Positions 1 through 10,062 of a stretch of DNA of 13,415 nt are shown piece after piece. Position 1 is the stretch's first letter. The number at the start of each line of letters is the position of its first letter. Source of the stretch: Entamoeba histolytica HM-1:IMSS (taxonomy: Eukaryota > Evosea > Mastigamoebida > Endamoebidae). Under the pieces are notes generated by a model, which ran no database searches, was not told the DNA's origin, and saw only the letters and a list, made by a program, of their open reading frames with translations. A program made the position numbers and the translations under genes. The stretch spans positions 1-13,415 of the forward strand of contig NW_001915228.1 of the NCBI RefSeq assembly GCF_000208925.1, given 5' to 3'.

Positions 1-414
1 GTTGGAAAAACAGTTACAAAAGAATATACTGTTGGATTAAAAGATTCAATTAATGATCTTAATGCACTTGGAAGAACAAAAAGAGGGAAGACAACAAAAC
101 AATCATCTCATAATGAACCAAATGCTTTCAATCTTCATTCTTTTATTTTAGTTTATACTTCATTATCTTCATTAAATAATTATTCTTTCTTTGATGGAAA
201 AATCAATGCTATAGCAATTGTTCATTTAATTAATGGAAAAGTTATTCCTAATTGTTTAGGAAATATATGGGTATATGTTAGAGATTGGTCAGAAGAAGAT
301 GGAAGATGTGGGAAATTTAATGTTGGAAAACAAAATGTTACATGGTGTGGTGGAAAATATCATCCAGATCCTCTTCATGATGATACTTCAAAATATTTAA
401 AAATCACACTTTAA
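1..414 (+). CDS. C-terminal part of an unidentified beta-rich protein, candidate structural protein of a virus-like element (5' partial)
   Basis: The first 414 bases are open in frame 1 to a TAA at 412-414, giving 137 residues; the start lies left of the window. The N-terminal third is polar and basic (KRGKTTKQ). The rest alternates hydrophobic strands and turns (FILVYTSL, INAIAIVHL, NIWVYVRDW) and ends in a strand-like KYLKITL, as in all-beta proteins. There are three cysteines within about 35 residues and three Trp, all TGG. I do not recognise a family. It converges on a packaging-type ATPase, only 12 bp from the end of that gene's readable frame, so a capsid or other virion protein of the same element is a reasonable inference, not something the sequence proves. 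A cellular beta-domain protein remains possible. The open frame and ordinary composition argue that it is a real gene. Confidence 0.6.
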   Translation, partial: VGKTVTKEYTVGLKDSINDLNALGRTKRGKTTKQSSHNEPNAFNLHSFILVYTSLSSLNNYSFFDGKINAIAIVHLINGKVIPNCLGNIWVYVRDWSEEDGRCGKFNVGKQNVTWCGGKYHPDPLHDDTSKYLKITL

Positions 415-492
415 TTTTTAATTCAATTATTTTTTAATAACATTAACATCTCCTGTTAAATTATCTATTTTTAATACTTGTTTCTTATCCAT

Positions 493-1167
493 TCATAAAT
501 AAAGATAATATGCTACTGTTCCACTTGAATTTGCTGCTGTTTGTCGAAAAATATAACTAAAATTCTCTTTAGAATATCCTTTAAAAATAATAATTGTTGC
601 TACTTGTGTTTTAAATGATGCATTTAATGCCTTCCATATATGTAAATTCACAATAATTGTTGTTTTCAAATGTCTTAATCTTGTAATAATTTCTCCCCAT
701 GTTTTATCCGCTTTCATCATTGCAATTGTTGCATCTTCTAATATAATTAATAAATGTTTCTCTCGTGCTTGTTTATAATATTGCACTAATGCTGGCATAA
801 ATTTCTCATAATTCATTCCATATATTGGTGTTTTAATTAAATCTTTTAATTGTTTAAATGTTTCATCTTCTCCTGCATTTTGTGCTACATAAATAATAGC
901 CCCATATAAATGTTCTATATGATTCATTTTTATTAATTCTTTCATTATAAATGTTGTTTTTCCTGTTCCTTGTTTCCCTAATACTATATTCAAACTATTA
1001 TAATAAAAGAAGATTTGATGATGTACTTTTTGTATTTTATTCCCTTCTTTAATTTCTGATAATTTATCTTCTATCATTTCTTCTATTCTATCTATTCCAA
1101 TCTCATCTTCTTCTTCTTCATCTTCTATACTATTTATATCTTGTGGATTTGTTTCAAAATATTCCAT
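493..1167 (-). CDS. A32-like (FtsK/HerA-type) DNA-packaging ATPase
   Basis: This 224-residue protein is predicted to use ATP to drive viral DNA into a capsid. After an acidic N-terminus (residues 13-45) comes a Walker A loop, GKQGTGKT at 64-71, in the hydrophobic context typical of the family. Walker B is LLIILED at 139-145. A basic segment RLRHLKTTIIVNLH (163-176) follows, corresponding to the arginine/sensor strand of A32-like ATPases, although the usual sensor Gln appears as His. A late FRQ (207-209) completes the pattern. Length is normal for Polinton, virophage and NCLDV packaging ATPases. The ATG at 1165-1167 follows a TATA-like element and a GAACT box. The stop is TGA at 493-495, yet the same frame stays open for 22 more codons to a TAA at 427-429, so the product may once have been, or may still be, longer. 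The family call is by motif only; another P-loop ATPase is less likely. Confidence 0.8.
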   Translation of the reverse strand: MEYFETNPQDINSIEDEEEEDEIGIDRIEEMIEDKLSEIKEGNKIQKVHHQIFFYYNSLNIVLGKQGTGKTTFIMKELIKMNHIEHLYGAIIYVAQNAGEDETFKQLKDLIKTPIYGMNYEKFMPALVQYYKQAREKHLLIILEDATIAMMKADKTWGEIITRLRHLKTTIIVNLHIWKALNASFKTQVATIIIFKGYSKENFSYIFRQTAANSSGTVAYYLYL

Positions 1168-1180
1168 TCTAAAAATAATT

Positions 1181-1200
1181 AGTTCAAAAAAGTATTTAAA
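1181..1200 (-). promoter_or_regulatory. Entamoeba-like core promoter of the ATPase gene
   Basis: In the 45-bp gap upstream of the ATPase start, the - strand reads TTTAAATAC (1192-1200), then GAACT (1181-1185), then an AT-rich stretch running into the ATG. Entamoeba core promoters are known for a TATA-like GTATTTAAA element about 30 bases upstream, a GAAC box and short 5' leaders. The order and spacing fit, although the TATA-like match is exact only on the + strand (GTATTTAAA), its core TTTAAA being palindromic. Confidence 0.4.
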
Positions 1201-1212
1201 TTAGATTTATTT

Positions 1213-1554
1213 CTATTCCCATTGAATAGCATAAAGAAGATTAACTCTTTCTTTTAAAACTCCATTTCTAATCTCTTCATTCATTCGATTCTCATTAACT
1301 AATAACATTCGATTTCTTTCTAATTCTTTTCTTAATCTCTCATTTTCTTCAAGTATGTCTATCATTAATTCAATTGCATTATCATTCATTTGTCTTTTAA
1401 TAAAATGTGTAATCTTTTCTTTATTATTCATTTTATTCTTCTTTGGTTTTATTTCTTCATTTATTGGTTCTGGGGTTGTTGGACATGGTGGAAGCTCTGG
1501 TGCTCCTGTAAAGGAACACATTTGTGTACTGTTGTTATCACTAGCAATTGACAT
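1213..1554 (-). CDS. Small proline-rich/coiled-coil protein of the virus-like cluster
   Basis: This is a 113-residue protein of no family I recognise. Residues 1-16 are Ser/Asn/Thr-rich, 17-30 are Pro-rich (APELPPCPTTPEP), and 33-48 are Lys-rich. Residues 55-105 form a convincing amphipathic helix or coiled coil (IELMIDILEENERLRKELER), ending in a hydrophobic tail. The stop is TAG. It lies 45 bp upstream of the packaging ATPase on the same strand, so the two look like neighbouring genes of one element. A scaffold, minor virion or oligomeric DNA-binding role could be imagined, but nothing in the sequence decides. The opposite-strand frame across 1355-1762 is a hydrophobic, Phe/Ile/Ser-rich shadow and not a gene. 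The ATG at 1552-1554 is the only sensible start because the sequence upstream is stop-rich. Confidence 0.6.
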   Translation of the reverse strand: MSIASDNNSTQMCSFTGAPELPPCPTTPEPINEEIKPKKNKMNNKEKITHFIKRQMNDNAIELMIDILEENERLRKELERNRMLLVNENRMNEEIRNGVLKERVNLLYAIQWE

Positions 1555-1823
1555 CGTTTGTTTGTCATTAAGTTATTTAAGTTGTATTTATATCATCATT
1601 TCATTCTTCATTTTGTGTTTCATTTCTTATTTATATCCTATTTTTCATTCATATTTCATTCATATTTCTATATTTTATTACTTTATTTCTATATTTCTTC
1701 ATTCCTCGATTATTCTTTACGTCATATTTATGATTTATTCATTCATCAGGGGTAATAAATAAATTAAAAACTCAATTTATTCGACTATTTATTCATTATG
1801 AATCTCATTATTTTCATTCATTC
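1555..1823. other. Divergent intergenic region between the coiled-coil gene and the 69-residue gene
   Basis: This 269-bp spacer separates two divergently oriented genes and must hold both promoters. It is strongly T-rich on the + strand, with a short repeated CATTCATATTT motif near 1640-1675. TTATTCATTATGAAT sits just upstream of the 1824 start. I see no perfect GTATTTAAA element in it. The translatable frames within it are low-complexity Phe/Ile/Ser/Leu-rich strings and are not supported as genes. Confidence 0.4.
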
Positions 1824-2033
1824 ATGTCTTCCGTAAGAGATTTATTAATGGCGGCTGCTTGCATTGATCTTGATCCTGCAAATCTTCAAGTCGCCTCTTC
1901 TCTTTTATCTCAACTTGTTCTTCTTCTTCCATCAATCACAAATGAGAATGAAAAGAGAATATTAAAAAGCGTCTATTGGAAACTTGTATGGCAAATTAAT
2001 GCTCTTACTGGATGGAGTAAAACCATTAATTGA
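1824..2033 (+). CDS. Small helical protein of unknown function (69 residues)
   Basis: This is a short frame whose composition is clearly unlike the spacer around it. It uses GCG, GCC and GTC codons, has no low-complexity runs, and encodes a balanced, helix-prone sequence. Residues 5-35 are rich in Ala/Leu (LLMAAACIDLDPANLQVASS). A second segment, 44-62, carries three of the aromatic/charged patches, including two Trp. I do not recognise a family, and no signal peptide or credible membrane span is present. It sits between, and on the opposite strand to, the coiled-coil gene and the 134-residue gene, an alternating layout seen in compact viral genomes. The ATG at 1824 is preceded by T/C-rich DNA; the stop is TGA. 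It could be a small virion or regulatory protein, or a chance open frame, though the codon composition argues for coding. Confidence 0.45.
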   Translation: MSSVRDLLMAAACIDLDPANLQVASSLLSQLVLLLPSITNENEKRILKSVYWKLVWQINALTGWSKTIN

Positions 2034-2172
2034 TTATTTTCTTTTTATTATTCTGTATGTTTATTTTCATTCAATATTTAATCAAAATTTAAATAAAATA
2101 AAAGAGATAAAAATCATTTAATTATTATTTTATTGATAACAATAATAAAAAGGAGTTAATTAAATTAGAGAT

Positions 2173-2577
2173 TTAAATCTCCCCGTTTTGTTTACGATAT
2201 AGCTCAAAGACTATATCCCAGGCACCAGCAAAGCCATCCCGTGCCCAAAAGTCATCGAGATATGGGATGACACGAGCTAATACGGTTGGGGATAAATTAG
2301 TAACCCCATCCCATTGAATGCAGGTTATTATCGCTATTGCAAACCCGCATTCGTGTATAATCACTACGTCCCAATTCTCGGGATCACTTAAATGATGATA
2401 AAAATCATAATATTGCAATAATTCCTCGATGGAAAATTGCATTGAATATTTATTGACAATTGAATCAAGTAATATGTAATCGTTTTCGCATAATGTCAGT
2501 TTTATTAGTTTGTATCTGTCAGAGGAAGAAATCGTAGTGTTGTTGTTTATAATGTCAATTATTTTGTTATCATTCAT
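2173..2577 (-). CDS. Conserved-looking protein of unknown family, compositionally foreign (134 residues)
   Basis: This is an intact 134-residue frame with TAA stop. The N-terminal half is helical and polar (KIIDIINNN, then SDRYKLIKLTL). The C-terminal half is richer in Trp, Asp and Gly (ENWDVVIIHECGFAIAIITC, later PYLDDFWARDGFAGAWDIVF) and resembles a compact alpha/beta or helical-repeat domain. I do not recognise the family. The striking property is composition: about 44% G+C over 2168-2387 by hand count, with many CpG dinucleotides and NNC codons, against roughly 20-25% or less in the flanks. That suggests recent transfer or a different mutational history from its neighbours. It is the right-most gene of the virus-like cluster and may be cargo. 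A TATA-like TATTTAAAT lies about 35-45 bases upstream of its ATG. Confidence 0.65.
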   Translation of the reverse strand: MNDNKIIDIINNNTTISSSDRYKLIKLTLCENDYILLDSIVNKYSMQFSIEELLQYYDFYHHLSDPENWDVVIIHECGFAIAIITCIQWDGVTNLSPTVLARVIPYLDDFWARDGFAGAWDIVFELYRKQNGEI

Positions 2578-2639: not shown

Positions 2640-3275
2640 TAGGGTTTGATTGATAGAACATGTGCTGTTTATCTTATTATTTGTCACAACATAAACATGA
2701 CATTAGTCAGAATATACCAATAAAAATCATTTATTTTTTAATACAGAATTACATAAAATGTATTATTTTTTATATTCTTTTGTTTTTTATTTTTTAAAAA
2801 TAAAATAATAAAGTTACATAAAGTGTAAGAAAAAATAGAATATTCAAAAAGTGTAAGAATAATAGAATATTCAAAAAGTGTAAGAGTTATAAAATATCTT
2901 TTTATTACTTCAAAATATCTTCATTATGAATTTTACGAAAATAACGAAGATATAATACTTCAAAATAAGAAAATATATAAGAATAGATCAAAAAATATCC
3001 AACAATCATTCATTTTAAATGGAATACCTCAAAATATCTGTATCCATTCTAAAAATAAAAATACAAATCTATTTATAGAAAAATGGTATTTTAAAAACAA
3101 TAATAAAAATATAAAAATGTTATATAAAACAATAGTAATAAAAAATGTTATTTATCCCAAAAGGACCAGATTTTCCCACTACATATATATGATGTATCAC
3201 ACTATTGTCAAATTGTACCATTGAAAAATAATATAAAAAGATATAATTATAATTATATTTCAATAAATAAAAAGT
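2640..3275. other. AT-rich spacer without genes
   Basis: About 640 bp without a supportable coding frame on either strand. It holds the 27-bp-period repeat described separately. It also has an imperfect dyad with arms ATATCTTC (2915-2922) and GAAGATAT (2946-2953), embedded in two copies of TACTTCAAAATA spaced about 50 bp apart. There is a slightly GC-richer patch near 3156-3180 (CCCAAAAGGACCAG). The right end runs into the 3' tail of the reversed LINE fragment. No tRNA or other RNA gene is recognisable. Confidence 0.5.
2834..2885. repeat. Short tandem repeat, 27-bp period, two full copies
   Basis: AATAGAATATTC followed by AAAAAGTGTAAGA occurs at 2834-2858 and again at 2861-2885, identical over 25 bases and spaced 27 bases apart. 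A partial earlier copy (AAAGTGTAAGA) precedes it at 2820-2830. The unit contains the palindrome GAATATTC. There is no coding potential across it. Confidence 0.75.
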
Positions 3276-4250
3276 AAATAATAAGCAATTAATTAAGTAT
3301 TAATAGAACTAACTTCTATTGTTCCTGAATCAAGAGAGACTAATCCTGTCTCTTCGTCTTCTTCTTCAAGCATCTCTACAGAGTATGTTTGGTTGTGATT
3401 GAAGTTGTATTCCATGACATCCATCATATTTTTAATAACAAAGTTTTTTACTTCTTTAACAATGTCAATTTCAATTTTTAATTCTTTAATTAATTTAATA
3501 CTTTCTTTATTTATTATTCCATTGATTGATATTACTACTGGATTTATTTTGACATCTTTTAGTTTTTTCTATTTTCATTTGAATATTCTTTAATTCCTTA
3601 TACATATTTCTTTTCTTCATTTACACTCATTTAATATTGTGATAAACCACAATAGTCATATCAAATAATAGACTAGTTTTATTCTTTTTATCTAATACAT
3701 ATATGTCTGGTATTTTGTGATATTGTCCATCACTTTTAGGCATTATTTGTTTGTTCCATATCATTGTGATGTCTTTATATTGGAACACTGTTTCATATGG
3801 AGGTTTTTTATATTGATTATTTCCTGTATATTTTCTTATTAATCAATATTATAATGCCAATATTGTCATGTTTCTCCATTTGTGATTTTTTATAATAAAT
3901 ACAAGATAGTAGAATGTGTTCTACTGTAGCTATCTTGTCTTTACAAATTGTGGAATATTTTAATCTTTCATTTTTCATTATTTTTGCTTTTCTATACCCA
4001 CAAAATATTGCACCATCTTGCATTTTAGTTAATTGGAGAAATGCATTTTTCTTAATATTGATGGACTTCCATGCTTTCACTGTAGTAGTTTTATCTACTC
4101 CTTTTGACTCATTCCATCTTCTAAAATGTCATTTGTTTGATGACACTTCCATTTTTTGATGTATTTGTCAATAATTTTTATTTCTATGACTACTTCTTTT
4201 TCTTTTTTCTTTTCTATAAATTCATTTATTATTTCTTCTATGTTTGGGGT
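3276..4250 (-). mobile_element. 5'-truncated LINE fragment (EhLINE-like), 3' part of ORF2, reversed
   Basis: The - strand encodes, in several broken frames, the C-terminal third of a LINE ORF2. It aligns with 8030-9012 of the + strand LINE. Shared blocks include the finger region (KIATVEHILLSC against KIATINHILLNC), the following KKSQMEKHDNIG block, and the endonuclease core. The endonuclease core keeps a canonical PD (codons at 3705-3710) with 14 residues to the second Asp (3660-3662), then MTIV. The first finger Cys is replaced by Ser. Frameshifts occur near 4116-4140, after the endonuclease motif and near 3550, and several stops interrupt it, so it is inactive. An acidic C-terminal tail ends in TAA just before a 3' sequence resembling that of the other LINE. 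Identity to the long copy is only moderate, so it belongs to a different subfamily or an older insertion. Confidence 0.85.
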
Positions 4251-5740: not shown

Positions 5741-8700
5741 ATGAATATTAAAATAAAAAAGAAATTAAGAAAAGAAGAAATAAAAAGAATATTAGAAGAA
5801 TATCATATTGATATTACAATCAAAGAATATATAAAAACAGTTAAAAGAAGTAAAGGGATTAAAAAAGAAATCATAGAATACATTAATAAGAAAGTAGGAG
5901 AATTGATTAAAGAAGAAGATAATATAAAAAATGAAAAGATTAGAGAGATTATTAGAAAGAAAAAGAAGGAAGAGATTGATGTAGAATACATAGAAGAGTT
6001 AATAAAGAAAAGTAAAAGAAAAGACATCAAAGAGTGTAGATACATTGGATATTATTTCAATAAAGAAATATGTGAAGAAATAATAAGATATATTGATGAA
6101 AAAAGGGAATGGAAAGAAGGAGGTATTAGAGAGATACAAGAAGACATTTACAGAATAACATACATAATAAAGAAGTATTTAGAAAACAAATTCATAGGAT
6201 TTAAGAAATAATATGAAGTAGTAATACAAAGCAAGATAAATAAACTAAAAGACATGGTAATAAGAGGAAACTATAAAAAATTAAGAAGGATATTAAGAAT
6301 AAGAAGAATGATAGAAGAAAAGATAAGGGGAGAAGTAAATGAAGAAATAAAACAATTAGAATACTTAAAAGAAATGAGGAAAAAGAAGTAGACTTAAACA
6401 AAAGTAAAAGAACAAGAATCTACAGAAACAAAATCATGAGTACTACTGGAAAGAAATAAGAAAGGAAATAGGAAGAGAAGAAGAAAGACGATGTGAAGAA
6501 GAAACAAAAGAGTTTTGAATAAGATATATAACAGAGGAAAAAGAATAAAGAAAGAGAATGAAAGAATAAAAGAGATGATTGAAGAGAGTAATAGAAGGAA
6601 TTTGAAAAGAATAATAATCACAAAAGAAAACATAGAGAATGTGATAACAAGAATACCATCATGGAAAGCACCAGTGATTGACAGCATTCAGGGATATTAC
6701 TGGAAAAGATTAGAGAGTGTTAGAGACAGATTAGTTGTAGTGTTAATGAATGGTTAGACACTCCAAAAAACATTCCAATAGAAATGCTAACAAGAAGAAC
6801 TATTCTAATACACAAAGGAGGAGATATCAAAAAGCAGAGAATTATAGACCAATAACATGTCTTAATGTAATAATGAAAATCTTTACTTCAATCATAAAGA
6901 GAAAGATAGAAGAACAACTAGCAAATAATGAAGAGAAATACCAAATTAATAAGAGTCAATATGGGAATAAGAAAAGAAGTCTGGCAGCAAAGGAAGTATC
7001 ATAAGTTTATTAGAAAGAAATGAAAGAGAAGTACAGAAGAAAAGATATTTAGAATCATTCTATAACATTAGAAAAGCATATGATACAGTTAATCATGAAT
7101 GGTTAGAAATTGTATTAAGATACTTCAAAATACCATTTCAAATAACTGAATTAATAAAAAGTATGAGTAGTAGATGGAGAATAAGAATAGGATATGGATA
7201 TAAAGAAGAAATAAGAGAAGTTAAAATAAAAATTGTATATTACAAGGAGATTCTCTTTCACCACTCCTATTCATATTACAAATGAATATCATTTCTGATG
7301 TTATTGATAAAACAAATGAGAAATGAATAAAAGTGACACACGTACTATACATGGATGATATTAAAGTAACAAGTGAAACAAAAAAAGGAATGGAAATAGT
7401 GCATAAAAATATAATAGAAACAATAGAAGTAATAGGAATGGAAGTTAATGTAAATAAAAGTTGAGTAATGAAGAAAGGAAATATAGAAATACAAGATAAT
7501 ATGAAAGACATTCCAATAGTAGACTCAGAACATCAATATAAGTATTTAGGTATTTATCAATTCACAAGAAATGATGATTTGAGATGCATAGAAAGAATAA
7601 TTAAAAGTGTAGAAGAAGGAATAAAAGAAAACAATAAAGGGAATGACAGTAGTATGAATTATATCAACCGAATTAATACAGAATTAATTCCTAAGTTCAC
7701 ATATAGTACATTTGTAGTTAAATAACCTATAATGAAACTGATAGAAATAGATAAAATGATAAGGAGAGAAATGAAAGAAGGAAAGATTAATGGAGCATGA
7801 ATGTGTAGTAGCAGATTATATGTAAACAGAAATAAAATGGGAGATGGATTGAAAAACATTAGAGATGAATATGCAATTGAATTAATAAGAACTATTTTGT
7901 ATTACACATGGAAAAGAGGAGATAGAATAGGAGACATGATACGAATAAATGAAAAGAAGAATGGAATGTGGAATAGATTGTATAAAGCGTGTGGAAAAAG
8001 AATAAATAAAGAAGAATTTAGAAAAATAGTAACAGAAGAAGAAAGAGGAAAACGGGATAAAAACAGAATAATTAAGTATGTGAGAGAAAAGTTCCAAGAA
8101 GATTATATCAATAAATGGAGAAACAAGAAAGTAAACAGTGAAGTATTGAAATGATTTGAGGATAAAATGACTGAGCAAAATAAAACAGTTAAAGTAAGGA
8201 AAGGAATTAATGTTATAAGAAAAGCATATATACAAATAAAGAAGATGGAAGAGAAAGCAACAAATGTAGGAGTAATGAAAGCATTAATGAAACATGATAT
8301 GAGATATGCAATGTGTCCAATGTGTAATAAGATAGCAACAATAAATCATATTCTTTTGAACTGTATAGTTACTAAGAAAACACAAATGAATAAACATGAT
8401 AGAATAGGAGAATATATATGGAGGAGATTAAAGATTAAATACCAAATATATGAAAACAAAGAAAAGATGAAGATGAGAGAAGAAGAAAATACAAAAAAAT
8501 TAATAATAAGGAAAAAAGAATTAGGAAAGAATGAAAGAAGAATAGAGAAAGATAAAATACTTATAGTTTGGAATCAAGAAGTAGTAAACAGAAGTGAAGA
8601 CAAATTCCATAAAAGAATAGACATTTATGTCAGAGACTTAAATAAGAAAGAAGCAATGATTATAGATATGACAATAGTAAGAGATAAAAACATAAGTAAA

Positions 8701-9402: not shown

Positions 9403-10062
9403 ATGCAATTAGGATATAATGAAATAATGATTGTCTCGAAGTATTTTGAAGATATTAATGATTTTATTAATTTAGAAATGGGAGTTAAAAGATTTGAAGG
9501 AAATATGGAACGATTTCATTTTAATCCAATTCCATTGAATCAATATTCAAGAAAATTGTTTCCTAATATTGAAACATTTCATATTTATAATGAAAAAGAT
9601 GAAATATTTAAAGATGGAAAAATATTTAAATATGTAATATGGTATAAAGTGAATTATTCAAGATATTTAAAAGAGAAAAATGAAATGAATGAATGTAAAA
9701 ATATCAAATATACACAAGAAGATAGAGAAGAATATTGAAATACAATACCAATAGAAGTACATTCATTTGGAAATGAATGTTTTTCTGGATGTTCATCATT
9801 AAAATCAATTAATATACCAACAAGTGTTATTGAAATAGGATTTGGATGTTTTGAAGGATGTTTATCATTAACATCAATTAATATACCAACAAGTGTAATT
9901 ACAATAGGAAATTGGTGTTTTTAAGAATGTTCATCATTAACATCAATTAATATACCATCATCAATTACGTCATTTGGAAATGGATGTTTTTATCATTGTG
10001 GATGTGAAGAAGAATTAAAGAAGAATAAAACAATACCAGAATATTGCTTTGAAGAATATTAA
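9403..10062 (+). pseudogene. BspA-like leucine-rich-repeat protein, broken by two nonsense codons
   Basis: The reading frame is 219 codons with no frameshift. Residues 1-111 are the Entamoeba BspA-family N-terminal cap: EIMIVSKYFEDINDFINLEM, then GNMERFHFNPIPLNQYS, then FPNIETFHI. TGA at 9736-9738 interrupts exactly where the cap meets the repeats. The frame continues with four 23-residue BspA-type LRRs (SINIPTSVIEIG, GCFEGC, CSSL signatures), with TAA at 9922-9924 inside the third repeat after GNWCF. A short acidic/basic tail ends at TAA 10060-10062. Related full proteins usually carry more repeats, so this one is short even if read through. BspA-like LRR proteins are a large Entamoeba family with at least some surface-associated members. 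Because decay is limited to two substitutions, inactivation looks recent, unless the stops are strain polymorphisms or read errors. Confidence 0.85.
9742..10017 (+). repeat. Four 69-bp tandem repeats encoding BspA-type LRRs
   Basis: The unit boundary ATACCA recurs at 9745, 9814, 9883 and 9952, an exact 69-bp period (23 codons). Units 2 and 3 are the most alike (AATATACCAACAAGTGT, then TCATTAACATCAATTA). High identity between units suggests recent expansion or gene conversion within the family. Confidence 0.85.

Follow-up and report, generated by a model that had tools for sequence, protein, structure and literature searches.

What kind of entity left the small, tightly packed genes that open contig C38 of the Entamoeba histolytica HM-1:IMSS genome? 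This contig, analyzed here over its complete length of 13,415 nucleotides (the window), belongs to an assembly of 16.95 Mb in 392 contigs. The initial annotation had proposed an integrated virus-like gene cluster with a packaging ATPase at its left end, and the core of this claim was right: all five open reading frames (ORFs) were confirmed, in mixed orientations and with tight spacing (Table 1). Moreover, the same gene order is repeated in other contigs of the genome, so the cluster is not a product of chance. Sequence comparison and a structure model point to an A32-type ATPase, a predicted double-jelly-roll capsid protein, a B-family polymerase, a dNK-dUTPase fusion (in one element type) and terminal inverted repeats (TIRs), on an element of 13–14 kb that occurs in several dispersed genomic copies. 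We are fairly certain that this is an endogenous polinton-like virus, and we assign a probability of roughly 93% to the whole explanation, i.e., that window positions 1 to ~3276 are one end of such a virus (Varidnaviria type) of Entamoeba, and that the ancestral entity was a linear dsDNA virus of ~13–14 kb with inverted terminal repeats. Counting against this explanation are the lack of an rve match and of a recognized protease, a penton that is a candidate at most, the low identity of the capsid model to solved capsids, the dN/dS values of ATPase and 366-aa protein, the early end of the C146 polymerase, capsid relatives on long contigs and the absence of relatives in the viral contigs scanned, all described below.

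Table 1. Features of the element in the window and in related copies (positions refer to the window unless a locus is given).
Feature	Position	Strand	Remarks
C-terminal 137 codons of 366-aa element protein	1..414	+	contig starts inside gene
A32-type genome-packaging ATPase	493..1167	-	Walker A and B; last 22 residues missing via in-frame stop
113-aa orphan, coiled-coil by look	1213..1554	-	ORF
69-aa orphan	1824..2033	+	homologue in C57, C189 (68 aa); similar frame in C239
134-aa orphan at element end	2173..2577	-	ORF
Terminal repeat region of element	2786..3276		matches both ends of C146
Terminal inverted repeat core, 30 bp	3190..3219	-	15 genomic sites at ≤3 mismatches
dNK-dUTPase fusion, 359 aa, one element type	L009 8186-9265 (C146)		dNK 8e-12, dUTPase 1.1e-39
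CRESS-like insertion sites	L013 (C118) 1378-2973, 3114-3641; L022/L053 (C23); L015 (C142) 6574-8268

Because the window is a whole contig, we turned to other copies for the remainder of the element. Two of them, C146 and C57, are near-complete and were read piece by piece in their present state. In C146, the genes encode, in this order, a 133-aa protein, a 113-aa protein, the ATPase, proteins of 366, 131 and 291 aa, the dNK-dUTPase fusion, a second dNK-like protein, the capsid protein, proteins of 155 and 117 aa and the polymerase. In C57 the order is 131-aa protein, polymerase, 147-aa and 155-aa proteins, capsid, 291-aa, 128-aa and 382-aa proteins, ATPase, and proteins of 109, 68 and 391 aa, the 382-aa protein being a homologue of the 366-aa one. 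It is the ATPase end of these elements that the window genes represent. The second dNK-like protein of C146 matched dNK with E = 1.3e-07 and AAA_28 better (4.1e-09). A separate 146-aa dUTPase frame lies in C275 and is perhaps the host's own.

A DNA polymerase B, which the initial annotation had suggested looking for next to the cluster, was found in these other copies. All three element polymerases scanned, from C146 (958 aa), C57 (1231 aa) and C34 (1124 aa), matched Pfam DNA_pol_B_2 (E = 1.2e-44 for one of them), and judged by sequence the enzyme appears to be of the organellar/viral, protein-primed B-family type. They are the long matches without stops among seven in the genome. As the C146 frame stops earlier than those of C57 and C34, this copy may be damaged. 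Polymerase dN/dS was 0.24–0.32 (this and all dN/dS values below by Nei-Gojobori, no significance test, some dS near saturation), and a comparison with PDB sequences gave nothing significant. A search for a common promoter motif among k-mers preceding 27 element genes (12 of C146, 11 of C57, 4 of the window) yielded none that was convincing on visual comparison with a crude background.

The putative capsid gene encodes 586 aa in C57, where the product is verbatim identical to an E. histolytica protein (P0026); search, alignment and structure model used the 579 aa of the C146 copy. The model predicts a double-jelly-roll capsid protein, a feature that the initial annotation had proposed to look for. 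It shares only 6–11% identity with solved capsids, and its fold lies near those of mavirus and Sputnik, among others. In the fold scores, large DNA virus capsids stood above virophage capsids, a rank that we do not use for placement. The query matched no family in Pfam, and its profile matched nothing significant among PDB sequences. Capsid matches occur at seven genomic places, two of them full-length without stops (C146 and C57), the others broken or partial. We found 122 capsid relatives; among the 120 listed, three carry an organism name, all Entamoeba, and nearly all others are presumably metagenomic. Taken together, the named relatives of capsid, ATPase and 366-aa protein come from E. 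nuttalli, E. histolytica and E. dispar. Relatives also lie on contigs of up to 42 kb, so that the 13 kb contigs are only suggestive. Scans of viral contigs with the capsid, the ATPase and a 40-row capsid alignment gave no confirmed relatives, and phage records yielded two weak matches to Sulfolobus spindle-shaped viruses (E = 0.2 and 0.5). The 131-aa protein is by look a candidate penton, i.e., a single-jelly-roll minor capsid protein; its best PDB sequence match (E = 0.51) was not significant.

A virophage, i.e., a satellite needing a co-infecting giant virus of Entamoeba, would be a sub-case of the polinton-like virus reading, and a rather unlikely one. We know of no giant virus of Entamoeba. 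The fold proximity to mavirus and Sputnik would fit a virophage, but capsids of large DNA viruses outscore virophage ones, the capsid query itself has no Pfam family match and one element type has its own nucleotide enzymes. Rumen virophages, as described in passages of PMC4409740, also combine pPolB and TIRs without a detectable integrase, which counts in favor of this sub-case.

The element extends past position 2577, via the terminal repeat, to ~3260–3280. A LINE-like 3' end starts at ~3262–3277, a boundary that is approximate because, in the scoring of 40 of 344 candidates, 10 of 39 other matches started earlier and ran further into the repeat, whereas 29 of 39 started at window position 3262 or later. 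TIRs had likewise been suggested as a feature to look for, and they are present in other copies: the 30-bp core occurs in opposite orientations at the two ends of C146, and likewise of C57, and a reversed-pattern control found no site. The first 405 bases of C57 match its right end inverted at 399 of 405 positions, with the differences at the inner edge; the left TIR copy is cut by the contig start. The element thus carries the TIRs by which polinton-like viruses (~13–40 kb) are recognized.

LINE-like 3' sequence abuts element ends in C38, C34 and C146 (right), and a dispersed SINE-like repeat does so in C118 (two), C146 (left), C279, C373 and C323 (two). We speak of LINEs because the C146 flank encodes a reverse transcriptase domain (RVT_1, 3.9e-19), and infer SINEs from copy number. 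Of the LINE- or SINE-like ends that adjoin terminal repeats (window ~3277–4246; C34, C146, C118, C279, C323, C373), several do so at the same repeat position, a pattern that an insertion hot spot or co-duplication might produce. Since such sequence abuts many ends, no target-site duplication (6 bp in a strict Polinton) is definable at the element ends. We considered whether the window and C146 are one locus related by inversion, as both show element, LINE-like and LRR sequence in order. However, flank identity is mostly 82–86%, which favors paralogous loci over an inversion. In the window the LRR-like gene is truncated (9403–9738), whereas next to the C146 element a homologue remains open over 354 aa (L011 2273–3337).

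The initial annotation had thought of Polintons/Mavericks, and in the strict sense this did not hold. The rve integrase family PF00665 gave no match in the 16.95 Mb assembly, although masked stretches or a very diverged integrase could escape; a control gave matches in 6 of 14 genomes. Similarly, no protease family was recognized among the 23 element ORFs scanned from the window, C146 and C57, where a diverged protease could escape. We hence conclude that the element is not a canonical Polinton as regards integrase. A capsid-less or domesticated self-synthesizing transposon (Polinton/Maverick) that moves as DNA only is very improbable: it would agree with the several genomic copies and with the placement of E. 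histolytica polB2 among Polintons in passages of PMC3511435 and PMC10285105, but the capsid gene is free of stops at two loci (C146 and C57), the assembly lacks an rve match, and capsid and ATPase have relatives in the wider protein set.

The window ATPase carries a Walker A (GKQGTGKT) and a Walker B (LLIILED) motif and matched Pfam Pox_A32 with E = 1.2e-4 and 22.1 bits, i.e., 0.7 bits under the cut-off of 22.8 bits. We aligned 19 sequences (window, C146, C57 and 16 database relatives). Both Walker motifs and an LRHL motif were conserved, 31 columns were invariant, and 14 of the 19 matched Pox_A32 at E ≤ 0.01 (best 4.5e-07), compared with at most 7 of 19 for any other family. Weak sub-cut-off matches to several cellular P-loop families were also found, and nothing significant among PDB sequences. 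The ATPase is thus A32-like, as first annotated, so that the refutation considered there (a cellular P-loop protein) did not come about. The weak cellular matches could be cited for the view that the ATPase is a cellular P-loop protein and the cluster a set of ordinary Entamoeba genes, as could the named relatives, all of them Entamoeba proteins annotated as nothing more than hypothetical or AAA+ ATPase domain-containing. This view deserves practically no credence given that Pox_A32 is the family most often matched, and we regard it as already refuted by the element structure, i.e., the synteny with capsid and polymerase genes and the TIRs.

The ATPase copies used for comparison have 246 aa. 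The virus-like genes had been described as open, which is true in part, but the ATPase of the window loses its C-terminus to the in-frame stop. The gene is found at nine genomic places, window included: four others share 96–98% identity with the full-length window protein, one of them carrying an internal stop. Two more reach 74–75%; of the remaining two, one has 68% identity and four stops, the other being a short fragment where a contig ends. Between element types the dN/dS of the ATPase was only 0.50–0.60. In the window the element survives as a damaged relic whose end adjoins LINE-like sequence, and since copies carry different damage, domestication, which had been considered, is not indicated.

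The frame at the left edge had been noted to run off the window, and the C146 copy identifies it as the end of the 366-aa protein. This piece is 99.3% identical to an E. histolytica protein over 137 aa and matched no Pfam family; the whole protein gave one weak sub-cut-off match (TMV_coat, E = 0.063). It has four database relatives only, of which two are named, both hypothetical Entamoeba proteins, so the element genes did not turn out to be ordinary Entamoeba genes. A structural role had been suggested for this protein and was not borne out, as its structure model was unreliable (pLDDT 49.8). dN/dS was 0.77–0.88 between types and above 1 in one close pair (22 nonsynonymous versus 4 synonymous). 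The protein hence changes rapidly, and it may have a surface or host-facing role.

Homologues of the 113-aa orphan (109–113 aa) adjoin the ATPase in C146, C118, C57, C189 and C239, with dN/dS of 0.42–0.46 between element types; for the 69-aa orphan it was 0.40 to both C57 and C189. The 134-aa end gene differs greatly between copies that are nearly identical elsewhere, as if it had been exchanged or were diversifying: between window and C146 its dS is 0.82, compared with 0.02–0.03 for neighboring genes. SMI1_KNR4 was the only, sub-cut-off hint for its C146 homologue (E = 0.075).

The reverse of this pattern was found between C146 and C57. Here, most of the stretch with capsid, 155-aa and 117-aa genes agrees at 99.6% over 2011 bp and that with the 131-aa and 291-aa genes at 96.8% over 1262 bp, whereas the polymerase and ATPase stretches show 69.8% and 74%, respectively. 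From this difference, module exchange between element types looks recent.

Three element copies carry a CRESS-like insertion fused, at one shared position, with the final ~54 codons of the double-jelly-roll capsid gene. The insertion contains a gene that is Arg-rich and capsid-like by look, without a Pfam family, and a Rep helicase domain (PF00910, 2.3e-07); an N-terminal Rep piece in C23 reached only E = 0.065. In C118, capsid tail and CRESS-like gene read as one frame of 532 codons. We set aside a virus with a chimeric capsid: the junction recurs, but the joined gene carries a stop in C23 and several in C142. As C118 and C23 moreover share a 4.4 kb stretch of insertion plus flank at 96.7%, this appears to be a CRESS-virus insertion that underwent duplication afterwards. 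Further CRESS Cap/Rep-like sequences lie beside a decayed element copy in C239 (L020 2900–3451, L021 645–1928), with a weak Circo_capsid match (E = 0.006).

For the virus from which these elements would descend, we envisage that the polymerase would copy the linear genome from its ends using a protein primer, that the dNK and dUTPase would supply dNTPs, and that the ATPase would pump the genome into an icosahedral capsid. As no integrase is recognizable, repeated integration might have proceeded by host repair, recombination or a trans-acting enzyme. Capsids of the mavirus/Sputnik type measure ~75 nm. A polyhedral E. histolytica virus of 70 nm was seen in 1972 and, according to passages of a review (PMC9973342), is unassigned, its genome not studied. 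We speculate, tentatively, that the elements are the integrated form of this transmissible virus (~70 nm by electron microscopy), that virions are still made in some strains and that lineages swap capsid modules in co-infected amoebae; the three points that connect them are the host, the predicted capsid type and the expected particle size. E. histolytica and related species parasitize the gut of humans and other primates. The dsDNA virus lineage described here from their genomes is predicted to encode a capsid; its element types differ greatly yet share nearly the same capsid gene, and it has many relatives in the wider protein set. The element supplies sequence baits and an antigen for a direct test of the old virus question.

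As far as our literature searches reach (titles, starts of abstracts and some passages, with most subscription papers outside their scope), the element is not described and the lineage is so far new. It is absent from passages of PMC4642659, PMC12220804, PMC12210455 and PMC10285105, and the E. histolytica literature found in this way reports the polymerase, not an ATPase or capsid. In the portions covered, a survey of integrated viruses in protists (PMC10120064) contains no occurrence of Entamoeba, PMC11071308 gives definitions of the virus groups and PMC7493932 links CRESS viruses to Entamoeba.

Compared by features rather than sequences, Polintons/Mavericks, including the E. invadens element (Polintoviricetes), resemble the present element in DNA_pol_B_2 polymerase, A32-type ATPase, double-jelly-roll capsid, TIRs and integration. 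The present element differs in having no rve match, no recognized protease, a capsid without Pfam match and, in one type, the dNK-dUTPase fusion. Rumen virophages (hybrid virophages; passages of PMC4409740) are likewise linear, with TIRs, pPolB, ATPase, capsid, no detectable integrase and a gut habitat, but they have a protease gene and a capsid sequence typical of virophages, neither of which was recognized here. For VC20 polinton-like viruses, passages of PMC7805220 describe amoeba genomes that carry capsid genes, two of these genes having pPolB no more than 10 kb away; by description, not sequence, these two loci also have rve genes nearby, unlike the present element. There, VC20 capsids are reported from other amoebae and a capsid had not yet been found in E. 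invadens. Comparable to the present polymerases (958, 1124 and 1231 aa) are EhDNApolB2 and the four E. histolytica B2 polymerases of Polinton type (813–1279 aa), for which, according to passages of PMC3511435, the authors were unable to identify ATPase, protease or integrase. In contrast, ATPase and capsid genes here share elements with such a polymerase, and the B2 polymerases of E. histolytica, described as transposon-derived, thereby gain a viral context.
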